Shown piece by piece: positions 3,967 through 12,022 of a stretch of 64,000 bases of DNA (the first letter of the stretch is position 1; each line of letters opens with the position of its first letter). A program made the position numbers and the translations under genes. The stretch lies in NCBI RefSeq assembly GCF_029265695.1, contig NZ_JAJUHW010000012.1, positions 1 through 64,000 of the forward strand, given 5' to 3'. The notes under the pieces are model-generated. The model worked only from the letters and a program-made list of their open reading frames with translations. It was not told the origin of the DNA and did no database searches. The DNA comes from Gracilinema caldarium. Its GTDB lineage: Bacteria; Spirochaetota; Spirochaetia; Treponematales; Breznakiellaceae.

Positions 3967-4233
3967 TCCAAAGAGCTTAATGCCCTCGTGGGGAAATTTT
4001 TCTTTTACCACTTCTACGGCGGCGGCGATGCGGCGCCCCTCCGCTTCGTCGCACCAGATTATAAGAGCAAAGTTTTCTTCCGGCCATACCGCGTCTCCCA
4101 TACGGGGACCGGAAGAGCCGACACCGTGAACTACGGGAATTTTGGTATATTCCTTAGCCACACCGGCCTTTGCAAAGGCATCAAAAAGGTCTTCTTCCAC
4201 AGAACGATTGGCAAAAAGTTCTAGTCGTATCAT
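3961..4233 (-). CDS. PG0541-like transporter-associated small protein
   Basis: A 90-residue soluble protein starting MIRLELFANRSVEEDL, with a central VVHGVGSSGPRMGDAVWPEENF segment and ending in a conserved GIKLFGL. It resembles the PG0541 family of PII-like small proteins encoded beside RND transporters. Its start overlaps the stop of the RND pump gene (ATGA, 4230-4233), so translational coupling is expected. Function is unknown; a regulatory or sensory role on the pump is inference from the PII-like fold and gene order. Confidence 0.75.
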   Translation of the reverse strand: MIRLELFANRSVEEDLFDAFAKAGVAKEYTKIPVVHGVGSSGPRMGDAVWPEENFALIIWCDEAEGRRIAAAVEVVKEKFPHEGIKLFGL

Positions 4234-7200
4234 TTCGCTGCCTCCTGGGCTGCTTTTTTGCTCAAGCCGGCAGCAATCCGCTCCCGGCGAGCCTCCGCAC
4301 GGGCCTTGCGTTCATCAGCACGTTTATTAAAGATTGCATAAATAACGGGCATTAAAAACAAAGTCATCAGGGTACCGAAGGAAAGCCCCCCGAGGACGGT
4401 TTTCCCGATGGGAGCCACCAGTTCAGACCCTTCGCCGGGGAAAAATGCCATGGGAACGAGACCTAGCACGGTGGTGAGGGTTGTCATCAATATGGGTCTG
4501 AGCCGATTACCCGCCGCTTCCACACAGGCATCATGCAGACTTAAGCCCCGTTTCCGCAGCAGATTAGTATAATCCACAAGGACGATACCATTGTTTACGA
4601 TGACCCCCACGAGAACGAGGAGCCCCACCGCGGTAAGGATATTAAAGACCTCTCCGGTCAGGGCGTAGATGGCTACTATGCCAATTACCGAAAGGGGGAT
4701 CGTAAAGATAATGATAAAGGGGTCCCGGAAGGATTCGAACTGGCTTGCCATAACACCGAAGACCAGGAACACCGCCACAAGCATGATAAGGGCAAATTTA
4801 CCCACATATTCCATGAGCTGCTGGTAGTCACCGGCATATTCAATGACCACATCATCCTCAGCGGGTATTTCCTGGGCGATAAGAGCGCGGATTTTGCTTT
4901 CTACCTTATTTATGGCCACACCCGCATTGGTTCCGGCAGTTACATGAATAACCCGGCCCTGGTTCTCCCTGCGGATAGTAATGGGACCGGTGGTCTTTTT
5001 ATATTGGGCAAAACTGGCCAAAGGAATCTTCTGGCCCGCGGGACTCATGACAAAGATTTTATCCAGCGCCGGCAGCTCGCTCCGATCCGCCTGGGGCAGC
5101 ATGAGTACCACGTCGTATTCACCGCCAGAGGTCCTGAATTTGGTGGCCGTAACCCCGTCTACCGCGGCCTTAAGCTCGTTGCCCACGGTATACACGTTGA
5201 GCCCCAGGGCATACATCCGTTCCCGGTCAAAGACCAGTTCAATCTGGGGGAGCCCATCCTTTAGATCAATTGAAGGTTCTTTGGCTTCGCTGACCTTATC
5301 CCGCAATAGCTGGGCAATTTTTTCGGCGATTGCTTTCCCTTTTACCAGGTCCTGGGTTTTGATAATAATATCAATAGGGCTCGCAGAACCGATCCGCATA
5401 GTGGCGGTGGATGAACTAAAACTCATGGTCGCGCCGGGGAAATCGTTAAAGTGGGCGCGGATCTTATTTTTCATCGTTTCCGCGGTATCAATCCGGTCTT
5501 TAAACTCTGGTAAGGTAATCTGTATGCTTCCCCTGTTAACCGATGCGGTTCCGCCAAAGCCGAGGAGTGATCGCTGACCAATGCTTAAAATCATCCGTTT
5601 GTAGCCCATTATCTCCTGTTCCAGGATTCCCTGTATTTGCTTCAGGACCGCCTCGGTTTCTGCAATAGGAGTTCCGTTAGGAAGTTCCACCGAAAGGGTT
5701 ACCGAATCGGCCTGCTGTTCAGGCATAAAAACATAGCCAATTCGGGGAATCGCGATAAGACTCGCCACAAAAAATACCAAAAGGGTCAGTATGGTGGCTA
5801 GTTTGTGCCGAAGCACCCGGTCAACGGCCCTGCGGTAGGCGTTGTCCAGGGCGGCAAAGAAGGCCACAAAGGGTTTGTCCAAAAGAGCCAAGAATCCATG
5901 GAGGGGCCGCTGAACCCGGGTCGTAAGCGGAAGATAGTGGCTCGTCAGGACCGGTATCAGCATCATGGCCACCGCCAGGGACATGGTAAGGGATATAACT
6001 ACGGTGAAAGAAAGGCCCGAAAAAAGCTCACCCACGATACCAAGCTGCCCCTTGAACATTACCAGGGGAGCGAAAACACAGATGGTTGTTAAGGTTGATG
6101 AGACGATGGCGTTTATCATTTCCTGGCTTCCCAGGATCGCCGCCGCCGTGAGCTTTGCCCCCTTTTCTCGGTATCGGTAAATATTTTCAAGGATAACGAT
6201 AGAGTTATCCACCAACATACCAACCCCCAAGGCAAGCCCTGCCAGGGTCATAACGTTCAGGGTAAGACCCCAGAAGTACATGAGCATAAGGGTAAAGAAA
6301 AGGGATACGGGAATAGTAATGCCGATAATCAGGGTTGGTTTGATGGACCTCAGGAAAATAAAGAGAATAAGAACTGCAAGCAGGGCCCCCTGGAGGGCGC
6401 TTGAGGTTACCTGGTTAATAGAGTTTTCGATAATGTCCGTGGTATTGAAAATTTCCGTAATGCTGATTCCCTGGGGAACCTCCTGGGCTATCCGAGTGAG
6501 CCGTTTGCGAAGCTCCCGGGCGGTCTGGACTGAGTTCTTGCCGCTTTGCTTTTGGACCGTAATCTGCACCGCCGCCTGACCATTTACATAGACCAGACTG
6601 TCTTCATCCCGATAACCCTCATATACGTCGGCGATGTCCCGCAGGCGTACCAGTTTTGAGGCTTCCACTTGGCCGTTCACAAGGCCGCCGCCCTTATATG
6701 AAATCACCGTGGACTGAATTTCATCCAGGCTCTGATATTCCCCAGCAGTTGCCAGCAAATATGAAAGCCCATTATCGAGTATGGAACCGGCTGAAACAGA
6801 GATGTTTTGACTTGCAAGCATTCCCTTTATTTGGGTAATGGTAAGCCCATAAGCCTCAAGCCGGTTCTGAGGAATTTCCACCTTGATAATCTTTTTCCGT
6901 CCCCCAGAGACGGTTCCCATAGCGACCCCGGGGACCTGCTCTATACGGGGAAGTATCGTATTTTCCGCAATTTCCCGCAATTCTTCGGGAGTCCGGTTTC
7001 CTGTCACCATGAGTCCCATAATCGGAATCATGGAAGGATCGAATTTAAAAATAAGCGGGGTATCCGTTCCATCAGGAAGGAACCGCTTAACCAGTTCCAG
7101 GTTATCCCGGACCGAATTGGCTGCGTCAGCCATATCGGTTCCATAGGTAAACTCCAACATGACCATACTGGAACCCTTGGAACTGGTAGAACTGAGCTTT

Positions 7201-7433
7201 TCTAGACTCGACACATTAGAAAGGGTTCCTTCGAGGGGCCTTGTTACAGTACGCTCAACCTCTTCAGGACCCGCACCAGAATATCCCGTGTACACAACAA
7301 GAATGGGAGGTTCAACCTCAGGGTACAAATCGATGGGCAGATTAAGGGTCGCAAATATCCCCAGTCCGATCAGAAGTGCGAAGGCGATAAAAATGGTAGT
7401 GGGTCGTGAAACGACCGTTTTAGCTATACTCAT
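4230..7433 (-). CDS. RND efflux pump, inner-membrane permease (AcrB/HAE1 family)
   Basis: 1067 residues, normal for an RND pump: TM1 at the N-terminus (IFIAFALLIGLGIFATLNLPID), a large periplasmic loop, TM2-6, a second periplasmic loop and TM8-12. The proton-relay region in TM4 reads GMLVDNSIVILEN, with one Asp where AcrB has two; the TM10 equivalent reads VNNGIVLVDY in place of the AcrB Lys region. Both variants are common in HAE1 pumps outside Proteobacteria. It exports hydrophobic compounds through the fusion protein and TolC-like channel encoded just upstream. The Shine-Dalgarno AGAGG precedes ATG at 7433. Substrate unknown. Confidence 0.95.
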   Translation of the reverse strand: MSIAKTVVSRPTTIFIAFALLIGLGIFATLNLPIDLYPEVEPPILVVYTGYSGAGPEEVERTVTRPLEGTLSNVSSLEKLSSTSSKGSSMVMLEFTYGTDMADAANSVRDNLELVKRFLPDGTDTPLIFKFDPSMIPIMGLMVTGNRTPEELREIAENTILPRIEQVPGVAMGTVSGGRKKIIKVEIPQNRLEAYGLTITQIKGMLASQNISVSAGSILDNGLSYLLATAGEYQSLDEIQSTVISYKGGGLVNGQVEASKLVRLRDIADVYEGYRDEDSLVYVNGQAAVQITVQKQSGKNSVQTARELRKRLTRIAQEVPQGISITEIFNTTDIIENSINQVTSSALQGALLAVLILFIFLRSIKPTLIIGITIPVSLFFTLMLMYFWGLTLNVMTLAGLALGVGMLVDNSIVILENIYRYREKGAKLTAAAILGSQEMINAIVSSTLTTICVFAPLVMFKGQLGIVGELFSGLSFTVVISLTMSLAVAMMLIPVLTSHYLPLTTRVQRPLHGFLALLDKPFVAFFAALDNAYRRAVDRVLRHKLATILTLLVFFVASLIAIPRIGYVFMPEQQADSVTLSVELPNGTPIAETEAVLKQIQGILEQEIMGYKRMILSIGQRSLLGFGGTASVNRGSIQITLPEFKDRIDTAETMKNKIRAHFNDFPGATMSFSSSTATMRIGSASPIDIIIKTQDLVKGKAIAEKIAQLLRDKVSEAKEPSIDLKDGLPQIELVFDRERMYALGLNVYTVGNELKAAVDGVTATKFRTSGGEYDVVLMLPQADRSELPALDKIFVMSPAGQKIPLASFAQYKKTTGPITIRRENQGRVIHVTAGTNAGVAINKVESKIRALIAQEIPAEDDVVIEYAGDYQQLMEYVGKFALIMLVAVFLVFGVMASQFESFRDPFIIIFTIPLSVIGIVAIYALTGEVFNILTAVGLLVLVGVIVNNGIVLVDYTNLLRKRGLSLHDACVEAAGNRLRPILMTTLTTVLGLVPMAFFPGEGSELVAPIGKTVLGGLSFGTLMTLFLMPVIYAIFNKRADERKARAEARRERIAAGLSKKAAQEAAK

Positions 7434-7442
7434 AGGGACCTC

Positions 7443-8387
7443 TTAAAATGCAGCTTTAAGGGGAGGCGTAGTGTCCACCACCCGAACCCGCACGCCATCC
7501 TCCAGGAGGCTCTGGCCACGGAGTACAACAAGGGATCCAGCCTCAAGGCCCTGTCTAATTTCTGCCTGATCATCAATAATGATTCCTGGTACTATAATTC
7601 GCTTTTGAGCTATCGTTATAGCTGGATCTTTTGGGTCCGTTTCTACCGTAAAAATATACTGATCTCCATAGCGCCGTACGATGGCCGCGGCGGGTATTTT
7701 GACAACATCACTTTTTTCTTCAGTAACAATCTTAAGCTTTGCAAACATCCCTGGCTTTAAAAGCGCATCTTCATTCTGCACCGAGATACGGACCTCCATA
7801 GTTCGGGAAACTGGATCTACTGTCGGGCTCAGTTCACGTACCCTGCCAGAAAAAATCCTACCTGGATATGCGTCCAGAGAAAGTTCAACCCCTAGACCAA
7901 CCTTCATTTTGGAGATAAACCGTTCTGCCACATAAGTACGGGCTTCTAATGACCCTGAACCGGCTAGACGAGCTACCGGCATCGCTTGGGAAATGGTCAT
8001 TCCAATCTGAACTGGTAACGCCACTACAGTACCCGAAATGGGAGCTTTTACGAGCCCCGTATTAAAGGACATCCCTGGTCGAGATGGATCTACCTCTGCG
8101 ATGGGATCATCCTTCTGCACCCGTTGACCTATAGCAACGTATAGTTTTGTCACTTTCCCGGCCACATCCGAAAAAGCATCGACCGTTGTTCCAGATACAA
8201 GATCGCCTGAGAGTGATAAGTAATCCCTAATTTGACCTCGAATAGCCTCTGTGGTAGTAACTGCGAAAACCGGTATTTGGGTCGCATTATCCTGCTCAGA
8301 TCCCTTTGCAGAATCTTTTGCCATCTGCCCGCAGGAAGAAAGCATCACGAGGGCGATGAGTATACCTGCATAGTAATCATGTTTCAT
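7443..8387 (-). CDS. RND efflux membrane-fusion protein, lipoprotein
   Basis: 314 residues. The signal peptide ends LSSC (Cys19), so the protein should be a periplasmic lipoprotein. Barrel-sandwich (lipoyl-like) half-motifs appear as DAFSDVAGKVTKLYVAIGQRV and VKAPISGTVVALPVQIG. A beta-barrel domain carries DAYPGRIFSGRVRELSPTVD, and a membrane-proximal domain follows. The alpha-hairpin normally between the lipoyl halves is almost absent, because the two half-motifs are separated by only about 20 residues. That short form implies direct docking to the pump, or a TolC contact unlike AcrA. AAGGAG precedes the ATG. It lies between the outer-membrane factor and the pump in the operon. Confidence 0.92.
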   Translation of the reverse strand: MKHDYYAGILIALVMLSSCGQMAKDSAKGSEQDNATQIPVFAVTTTEAIRGQIRDYLSLSGDLVSGTTVDAFSDVAGKVTKLYVAIGQRVQKDDPIAEVDPSRPGMSFNTGLVKAPISGTVVALPVQIGMTISQAMPVARLAGSGSLEARTYVAERFISKMKVGLGVELSLDAYPGRIFSGRVRELSPTVDPVSRTMEVRISVQNEDALLKPGMFAKLKIVTEEKSDVVKIPAAAIVRRYGDQYIFTVETDPKDPAITIAQKRIIVPGIIIDDQAEIRQGLEAGSLVVLRGQSLLEDGVRVRVVDTTPPLKAAF

Positions 8388-8389
8388 GT

Positions 8390-9790
8390 TTAGCTCCTTG
8401 TCAGGGTCCCGAAGGGCACCCCCATGGCATATTCCAGGTCCAGAAGCCCGGTCATAAAGTTAAATTGTTCTTTTATTACCTCAAGCTGGGCCTTTCGCAG
8501 ATCCAGGTCCGCATTGGTAATTTCCATTACATCCTTAAGACCCGCCCTATAGGCCTGTTCGGTCAGAGCATAGGCCTTTTGAGCCAAATCCACGTTCAGC
8601 CGCAGGGCACCCATACTTTGCAAAGACTTTTGCAGCTTAAGAACGATGGAATAAACCTCTGTTTCAGTGCCCCGTATGGCGAGAGCAAGATTGCTGTTCA
8701 GCTTCGCAATAGTGTCGTCCAGATCTGATAAGCCCTGGGCTTCCCGGGAAACCGGAAGCAGGCTGTTAAGCCGCCATGCCAGGGTAAGGGTAAACATACC
8801 CGACCGCTGTTTCCAGGAGTCTCCATTGAACCAGTTGTCTTTAAGCGGATCGCCCTGAAAGGTTGGATCAAAGGTCCAGCCTAAAGAAAGAGAAGGCGTA
8901 TAGAGCTGATAAAAGTTAGCCCGGCGGGTACTCTGGAGGAGCAGTATGGATCGACGCAGTTCTTCTAGATCGGGCTTCCCCGCTACAGCCCTGTTGATGA
9001 GATCTTCCAGATTCAATGAATGAGAGAGCGTTTGCGTCGCATCGGGGGGACTCACCGGCGCCAGATCCAGCTTGGTTCCGTGGGGCAGGCCCAGGTTCAT
9101 GGCCAGAGATTCTATGGCAAGGAGGTAACTGTTTTCCAAATCTTGAATAGTTGGTTTTAAATTTTCTACCCCGACCTGGGCCTGCAGCACCGTAAGCTCC
9201 GGCACAAGCCCCGAACGGTAGTTTTGCCGGGCGGTCTCAAGCCGCCATTCAGCTGCGGCAAGATTTTCTTTAAGGAGACTGATATTTTCCTTCAGTAAAA
9301 GAATCTGCAGGTAGCTTTTCCGGACATCCCGTTCTAGCTGAGCGCGAGCCTTTTCATAACTCAGTTTCCCATTTTCATAGTCCATCCGGACATTTTTTAA
9401 TCCCTCAAAAAGGGCGATATTCAGCATAAGACTGGCGGAAAACCGAGAAGAAAGGCTCCACTGGGGCAGTTCATAGGAAATAGGCATGACCGCATACCCT
9501 ACAGGTGGGGTGCCAACAAGTGTCGTCGGAACCAGGGAGGTCACCGTGGAAACCTCGTTGGTCCGGGCCAGGGTGCCGCTTACATCCACGGTGGGAATAA
9601 ATACGTTCCAGGCTGTATCGGCTTTCCGCTGCTTAGTGCCCAAATCCCGTTTTGTATTGTTTAAAGACAAGTTTTGGGCTATCGCCAGGTTCACCGCCTC
9701 ATCAATATTCAAAGTCCGTACTTCTTGGGCAGATAGAACTGAGCTCACCGCTGCCACAAGAAAGAAGCTCCATAGATATCGATGTTTCAT
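8390..9790 (-). CDS. TolC-like outer-membrane efflux protein
   Basis: About 466 residues with an N-terminal signal (MKHRYLWSFFLVAAVSSVLS) and the duplicated TolC repeat: LNIDEAVNLAIAQNLSLNN at the start of the first half, and long helical stretches with an LKDVMEITNADLDLRKAQLEV segment in the second. It would form the trimeric channel of the RND system. The ATG at 9790 is preferred over 9799 because AAAGG is then correctly spaced. The regulator gene ends at 9787, so the two genes overlap by a few bases. Confidence 0.92.
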   Translation of the reverse strand: MKHRYLWSFFLVAAVSSVLSAQEVRTLNIDEAVNLAIAQNLSLNNTKRDLGTKQRKADTAWNVFIPTVDVSGTLARTNEVSTVTSLVPTTLVGTPPVGYAVMPISYELPQWSLSSRFSASLMLNIALFEGLKNVRMDYENGKLSYEKARAQLERDVRKSYLQILLLKENISLLKENLAAAEWRLETARQNYRSGLVPELTVLQAQVGVENLKPTIQDLENSYLLAIESLAMNLGLPHGTKLDLAPVSPPDATQTLSHSLNLEDLINRAVAGKPDLEELRRSILLLQSTRRANFYQLYTPSLSLGWTFDPTFQGDPLKDNWFNGDSWKQRSGMFTLTLAWRLNSLLPVSREAQGLSDLDDTIAKLNSNLALAIRGTETEVYSIVLKLQKSLQSMGALRLNVDLAQKAYALTEQAYRAGLKDVMEITNADLDLRKAQLEVIKEQFNFMTGLLDLEYAMGVPFGTLTRS

Positions 9791-10992
9791 TCTTTCCATC
9801 CTTTAACCCCATGGGTCATATAGATAAACAGTTCCCTTAAATTCAACAAAGATTCCTCATTCCCCACATTCTGACGGACTTCCACCATGAGCTGGTTTAC
9901 CACATAAAAAAGCACCAATCGGGCTAGGGTAAGTCCATCCCAGCGGGCTACCGCAGCTTTAAGTGGTAATTCGTGTATAAAAGAAAAAAGTTCAAGACTT
10001 CCTTGGGGGAAAAGCATGCCCAGCTCTATCCGCTGAAGCCGTACCCAATCCAAAACAAGAAGGACGTCCCGGTTGTTACGCAGATAGTCATTGACGGTAC
10101 GCAGAGTCAGATAAAGGCGATCCATCGGATCGGGAGACAGGTCTAAGACTCTTTTTAAAGATTGGGATATATGTTCAAATTCTTTTAGGAATAGCTGCCT
10201 GAGCATTTCCTCCTTGCTTGCAAAATGGGCATAGAGGCCGCTCTTAGAAAGACCTGCTTTTTCTGCCACAAATTTCATTGAAGCATCCCAGGGGCCCGCT
10301 TCTCCGATGGCTCGGGCAACCGCCGCAAGGAGCTGGGCTGATGCGGCACTATCATGCCGGGCATCTATAGGCGGTGCTTCTTTCATGGCCATAAAAGCCC
10401 TGTCCAGGGCATCAAAATCTGGCATAGACACCGGTGAGCCAGGAACACACAATCCATCATAGACCAATTCGCTTACCATCCGCAGGGACTCCGCTACCGA
10501 TTCCTCCGCAGGTTCATCAACCTGACATCCCTTCTCAAGATGATAATGGGCTACCGAGAATACCACCGTAATGAGCACCATCCGGAGGTAAAAATGATTT
10601 TTCTTTTCTGCCCAGAACACACCGCGCCGCTGGAGTTCCTGCTTAAAGGTCCGGCCCGGTTTTTCCTGCCCTAAGACCAGGTTCAGAAAGAAAATAAAGT
10701 CGTATTTATTCCTGGTAAAATAGTCAGCCAGGGCCCGGCCGATGAAAAGGAGCCGTTTATTACGAGACTCCTGGGATAATGCTTCCGGCAAAACTTGCCG
10801 GACATGATTGGCAAAGCGGTCAAAAAAATCGTTATAGAGGGCGTCCATAAGGGCGTCTTTGCTGCTGAAATGGCGGTACAGGGCGGGTTTGGTCACCCCC
10901 AAATACTGGGCCACATCGGAAAGGCTTCTTTTTTTATAAAAGTCCCGGCCCCAAACTATCAGGGCCGCTTTCAAGATATCCGCTTGAGTCAT
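9787..10992 (-). CDS. Single-chain double TetR-family regulator of the efflux operon
   Basis: 401 residues, twice the usual TetR length. Two complete TetR units are fused. The first has its helix-turn-helix at residues about 24-43 (LSDVAQYLGVTKPALYRHF) followed by a ligand-binding helical domain to about 200. The second has a helix-turn-helix at about 239-257 (MKFVAEKAGLSKSGLYAHF) and its own C-terminal domain. Normal TetR proteins dimerise to read a palindrome, so a tandem protein could bind as a pseudo-dimer in one chain. The gene heads the efflux operon and a palindrome overlaps its promoter, so autoregulation with ligand-relieved repression is inferred. No clear Shine-Dalgarno precedes ATG 10992. 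Confidence 0.9.
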   Translation of the reverse strand: MTQADILKAALIVWGRDFYKKRSLSDVAQYLGVTKPALYRHFSSKDALMDALYNDFFDRFANHVRQVLPEALSQESRNKRLLFIGRALADYFTRNKYDFIFFLNLVLGQEKPGRTFKQELQRRGVFWAEKKNHFYLRMVLITVVFSVAHYHLEKGCQVDEPAEESVAESLRMVSELVYDGLCVPGSPVSMPDFDALDRAFMAMKEAPPIDARHDSAASAQLLAAVARAIGEAGPWDASMKFVAEKAGLSKSGLYAHFASKEEMLRQLFLKEFEHISQSLKRVLDLSPDPMDRLYLTLRTVNDYLRNNRDVLLVLDWVRLQRIELGMLFPQGSLELFSFIHELPLKAAVARWDGLTLARLVLFYVVNQLMVEVRQNVGNEESLLNLRELFIYMTHGVKGWKE

Positions 10993-10996
10993 CTAT

Positions 10997-11020
10997 ATGT
11001 TACCGACCGGTCGTTAACAT
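10997..11020. promoter_or_regulatory. Operator palindrome upstream of the double TetR gene
   Basis: A 24-base palindrome centred on CGACCGGTCG with GTTA/TAAC outer arms; only one base pair of the twelve is mismatched. It resembles AcrR-type operators (ACCGACCGGTCG) and lies 4 bases upstream of the regulator ATG, overlapping the -10 hexamer. Repressor binding would block the promoter of the whole efflux operon. Confidence 0.8.
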
Positions 11021-11045
11021 ACAGCAGATTATATATTATTGTCAA
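11016..11045 (-). promoter_or_regulatory. Promoter of the efflux operon
   Basis: On the minus strand a consensus TTGACA (11045-11040), an 18-base spacer and TATGTT (11021-11016). The -10 is embedded in the TetR-type palindrome. The 11051-11977 gene ends just upstream. Confidence 0.65.
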
Positions 11046-11050
11046 TTGGC

Positions 11051-11977
11051 TCACGCATTGATATCGATTGCTATTTCCGTGCCTGACTTGCTCTGGATAT
11101 GGAGCGTCCCATTGAGCTGCTTCGTTAATTCCCGTATCAGCACCATACCAAAACTTGTAGAATTATCCGCAGCAAAATCGGGCGGAAGACCTACACCATC
11201 ATCCTTGATAGAAATGTGCAAAATATCACCCTGTCTTTTTGCTTGTATTGAGATACGACCTGCAGCGCGTCCGGAAAAGGCATATTTCATCGCATTGGTT
11301 AAAACTTCGTTAATTATGATACCCAGGGGCTGCAAGATCTTAGAATCTAAATTGATATCATCAATTTCAGTATCTACAGTCACCTTATCCTTGTCAGGGA
11401 AGGTGTCCATAATCTCCTCTGTTAATGAAATAACATAATCTCGCAGAGAAAGGGTTTTATAATCTGTTGATGAATATAATTTATCATATAGCACCATCAT
11501 GCTTTCTATCCGGTTCTGTGCATCATCGAGGGCTGAAACCGCCCCAGCATCCTGCAGCACTGCGGATTGAAGAGACAGAAGGCTTTTCATGGTATTCATA
11601 TTATTTTTGATACGATGGTGTACTTCTTTTAAAAGGTTTTCTTTTTCATCCAGCAGATTCCTAATTTGTTGTTCATACCTATTCCGTTCATTAAAGATAT
11701 GGGCTATTCCTAATACACCGCATAACATACAAAGAGAAAGGACAAGCCCGATACTTTCATTGATCATATTAATCGACAACACAGAAGGAGAGTCTTGAAA
11801 TAGGTAGACAGAACTGAACACAATAATACGGCGTACACTCATCAGTACCAGCGCCAGGGTAATGAAAATCCATGAGACAGTTTTGCCAGATATTTTGATG
11901 AGCCTGATTGCGAAATATGCGGCAAGCAGCTGAAGCACTATGGAAGTTAACGGAATGCCATTTAAAAGGATACTCAT
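11051..11977 (-). CDS. Membrane sensor histidine kinase (HisKA_2 / HWE-like)
   Basis: 308 residues. Three N-terminal membrane helices (about 1-100) without a recognisable sensor domain are followed by a coiled linker and the phospho-acceptor motif LLKEVHHRIKNNM, diagnostic of HisKA_2 kinases. The HATPase_c domain shows the N box (IINEVLTNAMKYAF), DDGVGLP and a short G2 region ending at the C-terminus. No response regulator is adjacent, so its partner is unknown. ATG at 11977 is preferred to the in-frame TTG at 11983; no Shine-Dalgarno is visible and TATGCT (11989-11984) stands six bases upstream. It lies 46 bases after the adenosyltransferase gene. Confidence 0.88.
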   Translation of the reverse strand: MSILLNGIPLTSIVLQLLAAYFAIRLIKISGKTVSWIFITLALVLMSVRRIIVFSSVYLFQDSPSVLSINMINESIGLVLSLCMLCGVLGIAHIFNERNRYEQQIRNLLDEKENLLKEVHHRIKNNMNTMKSLLSLQSAVLQDAGAVSALDDAQNRIESMMVLYDKLYSSTDYKTLSLRDYVISLTEEIMDTFPDKDKVTVDTEIDDINLDSKILQPLGIIINEVLTNAMKYAFSGRAAGRISIQAKRQGDILHISIKDDGVGLPPDFAADNSTSFGMVLIRELTKQLNGTLHIQSKSGTEIAIDINA

Positions 11978-12022
11978 AACCAAAGCATAGTGTCACTTTC
12001 CATAATTTTCCAGAATTGGCCT

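Follow-up and report, generated by a model that had tools for sequence, protein, structure and literature searches.

A natural, spirochete-wide double TetR protein that regulates, most likely by repression, the operon of an RND pump

In a 64,000-nucleotide stretch of the Gracilinema caldarium genome (the window; the genome comprises 3.04 Mb in 88 contigs), a gene for two fused TetR units precedes the genes of an RND efflux pump. We conclude that its product is a natural, spirochete-wide double TetR regulator of the pump operon that most likely acts as a repressor. The mechanism that we favour, with a probability of about 0.7, is that of an autoregulated local repressor of the tetR-tolC-mfp-rnd operon, a single-chain pseudo-dimer of which one chain would bind one near-palindrome. 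The sequences themselves show two intact TetR units, a conserved operon, a single conserved operator in each promoter and where that operator lies with respect to the promoter. The intrachain pseudo-dimer and the ratio of one chain per operator are suggested by structure models and by analogy with Mce3R of Mycobacterium tuberculosis, while repression, autoregulation and induction by a pump substrate are what general knowledge of the TetR family would lead one to expect. The features concerned are as follows; the counts of downstream genes take the family loci with enough sequence.

4230-7433, minus strand: RND permease, present in 42 of 43 family loci
7443-8387, minus strand: RND periplasmic adaptor (MFP), above the cut-off of TIGR01730, present in 46 of 47 family loci
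8390-9799, minus strand: TolC-family outer-membrane factor, overlapping the end of the regulator by 13 bases, downstream in 86 of 88 family loci
9787-10992, minus strand: double TetR-family regulator, 401 aa, N unit at residues 1 to about 205 and C unit at about 206 to 401
10195-10332, minus strand: C-terminal TetR_N domain with recognition helix 250-254 and the motif SKSGLYAHF (from Pfam, AF2 helices and alignment)
10837-10977, minus strand: N-terminal TetR_N domain at residues 6-52, with recognition helix 35-39 and the motif TKPALYRHF (from Pfam placement, AF2 helices and alignment)
10996-11021, minus strand: imperfect palindrome of 26 bp, putative operator
11016-11021, minus strand: putative -10, TATGTT, within the operator (consensus match only)
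11040-11045, minus strand: putative -35, TTGACA, at an 18-bp spacer (consensus match only)

Two TetR units in one chain

The open reading frame of the regulator starts with ATG, and we judged it to be real. Its product matches Pfam TetR_N (PF00440) in two separate stretches with 79.9 bits against a cut-off of 24, and each copy exceeds the cut-off alone (46.3 and 42 bits when searched singly in the genome). The initial annotation had recognised two full TetR units in this 401-residue chain, with helix-turn-helix (HTH) motifs at residues 24-43 and 239-257; the doubled Pfam match and the AF2 model bear this out, the model having helix pairs at 24-31/35-39 in the N unit and at 239-245/250-254 in the C unit, as well as all-helical ligand/dimerisation domains (helices 45-179 and 260-398). 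The structures of FadR and FasR align to single halves of the modelled protein. BLASTP of the N half against the C half gave 32% identity over 84 residues (E 9e-9), covering the HTH and the next helices, and no similarity between the halves outside that stretch.

Across the window's family, each HTH region averages 3.2 bits of conservation per column, K35/Y39 and K250/Y254 being among the conserved residues. The ligand regions are less conserved, with 1.9 bits per column in the N ligand domain and 2.0 at the end of the C one, while helices 4-6 of the C unit lie in between at 2.7. The two DNA-binding domains are thus under equal constraint. In the alignment each recognition helix is conserved, yet that of the N unit differs from that of the C unit, and both HTHs are still recognisable in distant orthologues.

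Mce3R (Rv1963c; PDB 9B7Y) is a protein whose single chain is the functional fold, a pseudo-dimer (PMC11667970). From an alignment of 93 relatives and with one chain given, AF2 modelled the window protein with a pLDDT of 93.3 and a pTM of 0.91. Compared with solved structures, the model matched Mce3R (9b7y_A) best, with a Z score of 21.1 over 332 residues and an rmsd of 4.2, the match spanning residues 1-394; the next chains were ordinary TetR proteins that match one half only (Z at most 15.7). Foldseek also ranked Mce3R first for this model, but its global superposition is poor (rmsd 13.2, TM score about 0.5), so the halves may sit at a different angle than in Mce3R. An orthologue from another family (L174), which shares 19% identity with the window protein by profile alignment and was modelled without window-family sequences, reached a pTM of 0.90 and again matched Mce3R (Z 23.1, 344 residues), the next match scoring 14.2. 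The Mce3R structure was released in November 2024 and hence, we assume, was not in the training set of AF2.

Both models pack the N unit against the C unit within one chain; AF2 was given a single chain and hence had no chance to build a swapped or higher assembly. Direct-coupling analysis, at an effective depth of 129 that amounts to too few sequences, found no excess contacts between the two last-helix pairs. The structure prediction of the fused chain proposed at the outset, run here on the protein chain, yielded an intrachain pseudo-dimer and a whole-chain match to Mce3R in two orthologues. From the models and the analogy, we consider it well supported that one chain forms an intrachain N-C pseudo-dimer with an asymmetric four-helix bundle like that of Mce3R, as predicted in the models, and likely that the double TetR binds DNA as a monomer, which was one of two possibilities raised by the initial annotation. 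The other, two separate ligand pockets, is unsupported; Mce3R has a single shared asymmetric ligand cavity (PMC11667970).

The operator and its proposed occupancy

The promoter was first described as containing a 24-base palindrome with one mismatched pair that overlaps the -10. The mismatched pair and the overlap stand, but the length does not: the inverted repeat at 10996-11021, which reads TATGTTACCGACCGGTCGTTAACATA on the plus strand, is 26 bp long, with 13-bp arms, and its 20-bp core (10999-11018) is GTTAACGACCGGTCGGTAAC on the minus strand. TTGACA at 11045-11040 with TATGTT at 11021-11016 is the only minus-strand sigma-70-like promoter match, and because this match puts TATGTT at 11021-11016, the inverted repeat covers the putative -10.

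The 20-bp core, GTTAMCGANNNNTCGKTAAC, lies directly upstream of 97 of 99 family orthologues when up to two mismatches are allowed, nearly all of them having none. Each of these 97 promoters has one operator, set at a constant distance behind a TTGCC...TTATT promoter, while 0-147 bases part it from the start codon; being fixed relative to the promoter and variable relative to the start codon, it has the layout of a promoter-tied repressor site. Most relatives have it downstream of the -10, where it would overlie the transcription start. Outside the family, 63 of 69 orthologues keep the core, whereas shuffling of the upstream regions produced it once in 1380 (up to two mismatches in either case). 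As judged from this recurrence in sequence before family and non-family orthologues alike, the palindrome upstream of the double tetR is more than chance. In the six genomes checked (up to one mismatch), the core occurs once per genome and always before the double tetR, and the protein would therefore be a dedicated local regulator. Beyond the family, each of the 14 orthologues tested is likewise followed by tolC.

Individual loci depart from this scheme. Two family members (L067 and L109) are without a recognisable operator, and L067 is also without a downstream tolC, mfp or rnd match; L095 has about 1.4 kb extra between regulator and tolC, where nearly all other loci have 0-400 bases. The operators of L022 and L053 are perfect palindromes. 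In three loci from Treponemataceae-like genomes outside the family (L053, L055, L142) two perfect operators abut (GTTACCGAACAATCGGTAACGTTACCGATTGTTCGGTAAC), 20 bp from centre to centre, which suggests two repressor units side by side.

We propose that the N and C units would pack via their last helices into a TetR pseudo-dimer, as in Mce3R, such that the two HTHs of the same chain could fill the two half-sites of a single 20-bp near-palindrome. Because the operator overlaps the -10, its occupancy there (or over the start point, in most relatives) would block transcription of both regulator and pump, until a small-molecule ligand, presumably a substrate of the pump, enters the ligand domain and the repressor is released.

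A second arrangement, which we regard as possible although clearly less probable, has two full chains on one operator, either with four HTHs in the manner of QacR, a tetramer on its 28-bp palindrome (PMC4482099), or as a side-by-side dimer such as the C2 homodimer that Mce3R forms via helix 15 (PMC11667970). The inverted repeat of the window, at 26 bp, offers room for two TetR-type dimers, that of the closest relative extends up to 32 bp, and tandem operators exist in the three loci named above; however, conservation is mostly limited to the 20-bp core while the flanking arms differ among relatives, most promoters have a single site, and every Mce3R chain sits on its own 27-bp duplex region, at one chain per 25-27 bp site (PMC11667970). 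We consider improbable a swapped homodimer, in which N would pair with N' and C with C', so that two ordinary TetR dimers would arise that differ from each other in site and pocket. Both units are indeed complete TetR folds, and the authors of the Mce3R study also weighed this alternative (PMC11667970), but there is one operator species, present once in each of the 97 family promoters and once in each of the six genomes checked, both models set N against C in one chain (pTM 0.90-0.91), and cryo-EM ruled the arrangement out for Mce3R. That only one unit binds DNA, the other being a sensory or structural add-on, is the least probable of all: the two recognition helices do differ, but both HTHs are equally and strongly conserved, even into distant orthologues, and the operator half-sites are near-identical. 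The preferred reading, one chain on one near-palindrome, also escapes two objections foreseen by the initial annotation: in silico neither half lacks a DNA-binding domain, and there is no need for two palindromes, because exactly one operator stands before the pump operon.

The mismatched pair of the operator

At position 5 of the half-site, 74 of the 97 family operators have A in one half and C in the other, where 48 would be expected if the halves were independent. The asymmetry occurs in both orientations, including the exact inversions GTTAACGACCGTTCGGTAAC and GTTACCGAACGGTCGTTAAC, and the orientation of the operator changed at least eight times on the tree. Independent change describes the operators less well (lnL -90.8) than a model that allows direct swaps from A/C to C/A (lnL -80.9).

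We considered this asymmetry as proof of single-chain binding and rejected it as such. As a control we took the orthologues of L217, an ordinary single-unit TetR in this bacterial family, and 17 of their 19 operators have a conserved T/G asymmetry, inverted cases among them; the window's own C15 TetR, also taken as a control, had only four family matches, too few to be of use. Given that an unrelated single-unit TetR shares conserved asymmetry, the feature is not diagnostic of a single-chain binder. At loci L245-L262, the operator of a single-unit TetR from this family is of the TATACCTACCGTTCGGTATA type, and its T/G asymmetry is conserved but in some cases inverted; a lasting difference between half-sites may thus be common in this group.

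It is conceivable, though in our view doubtful, that the units act as a natural hetero-dimer within the chain and are specialised for A-type (GTTAACGA) and C-type (GTTACCGA) half-sites of a directed operator, with residue 36 of the N unit (P or not) and residue 252 of the C unit (G or S) setting the preference. The residue-operator correlations for N36 and C252 are suggestive, yet not significant once relatedness is considered: proline at N36 is associated with C/C operators by Fisher's test (p 7e-5), but on well-supported branches about 2 independent pairs support the association and 0.2 oppose it, which is not significant. If specialised reading of half-sites were true, the regulator would offer a natural system for tracking the joint loss of symmetry of a fused dimer and its operator.

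Distribution, origin and known relatives

We found the double TetR in 147 of 200 genomes of the window's family (E 1e-10) and, by profile search, in 107 of 395 genomes of its class; the orthologue in the complete genome G001 is 54% identical. At the profile threshold used, there was none in G255 (1.1 Mb) or the g58 genomes (2.8 Mb), which are reduced or host-associated treponemes. A 96% identical copy is found in a metagenome-assembled genome (MAG) named Treponema sp. M74. In one locus (L210, G559:C18:52163-53348), the double tetR appears as two adjacent open frames that match residues 2-157 and 168-399, which may be a natural split, a frameshift or an assembly error.

In a tree of the halves from 35 diverse orthologues, the N units form one clade and the C units another (both starred), the simplest reading of which is a single fusion before the class diversified. 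A tree with N and C as sisters lies 18.9 lnL units above the first and is not rejected (AU p 0.83); on these sequences, an origin of the double TetR by duplication is possible. The phylogeny of the two halves, suggested earlier as a way to separate duplication from fusion, thus recovers the N and C clades and one early fusion, but singles out neither origin.

The initial annotation implied that a double TetR would be new. This does not hold, given that the same architecture is already published for Mce3R, solved as a single-chain pseudo-dimer, and for the 204 double TFRs predicted in actinomycetes (PMC11667970). Two TetR units in a chain of about 400 aa, and the fact that models of two orthologues both match it best over the whole chain, liken the spirochete protein to Mce3R, which is an autoregulated repressor, as would be expected here. 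Identity in the structural alignments is only 13-17%, and a profile match of the double TetR to 9b7y best covers the N domain only; the likeness drawn here is one of architecture. They differ in target, the tolC-mfp-rnd operon in spirochetes as against mce3 and lipid genes for Mce3R, and in operator, near-palindromic in spirochetes and non-palindromic for Mce3R, the latter being a property of the sole member studied rather than of the architecture. In Mce3R, R53A abolishes binding (PMC11667970). What is new here is the spirochete-wide lineage, the near-palindromic operator and the pump target.

AcrR, MtrR and TtgR are TetR repressors that adjoin an RND pump and have their operator over the promoter. 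The spirochete protein shares with them the TetR_N domain, an operator at the promoter and linkage to an RND pump, and MtrR and TtgR are among its sequence matches; these proteins, however, are homodimers of about 200 aa, in contrast to two fused units in 401 aa, and the NCBIfam models score far below their cut-offs (MtrR 70 against 280, AcrR 36.5 against 271). Engineered single-chain Tet repressors (scTetR; for example PMC1797012) likewise join two TetR units into one polypeptide that makes up the dimer by itself. They are man-made, from one TetR and a linker, whereas the spirochete pair is natural, class-wide and diverged.

Literature searches, in which subscription journals were scarcely covered, found no spirochete double TetR, and this branch appears unstudied. 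With one double TetR repressor solved, on a non-palindromic site, the spirochete form constitutes a second, class-wide lineage, of which nature offers some 180 orthologues together with symmetric, asymmetric and inverted versions of the operator. Their number and variety make the system tractable for asking whether fusion of a dimer frees the DNA and ligand specificity of its halves. The findings also predict control of an RND pump in many relatives of the treponemes.

A gene for a membrane sensor histidine kinase (HWE/PhyK-like match; window 11051-11983, minus strand) precedes the regulator on the same strand; 58 bases lie between the two genes, and this interval contains no terminator match. 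Among the loci examined, only the 96% identical relative (L004/L005) has this neighbour too. Elsewhere in the same genome, an ordinary single TetR of 242 aa (L123; G000:C86, 1441-2166, plus strand) lies directly before another adaptor-type efflux gene and is a natural comparison for the double form.
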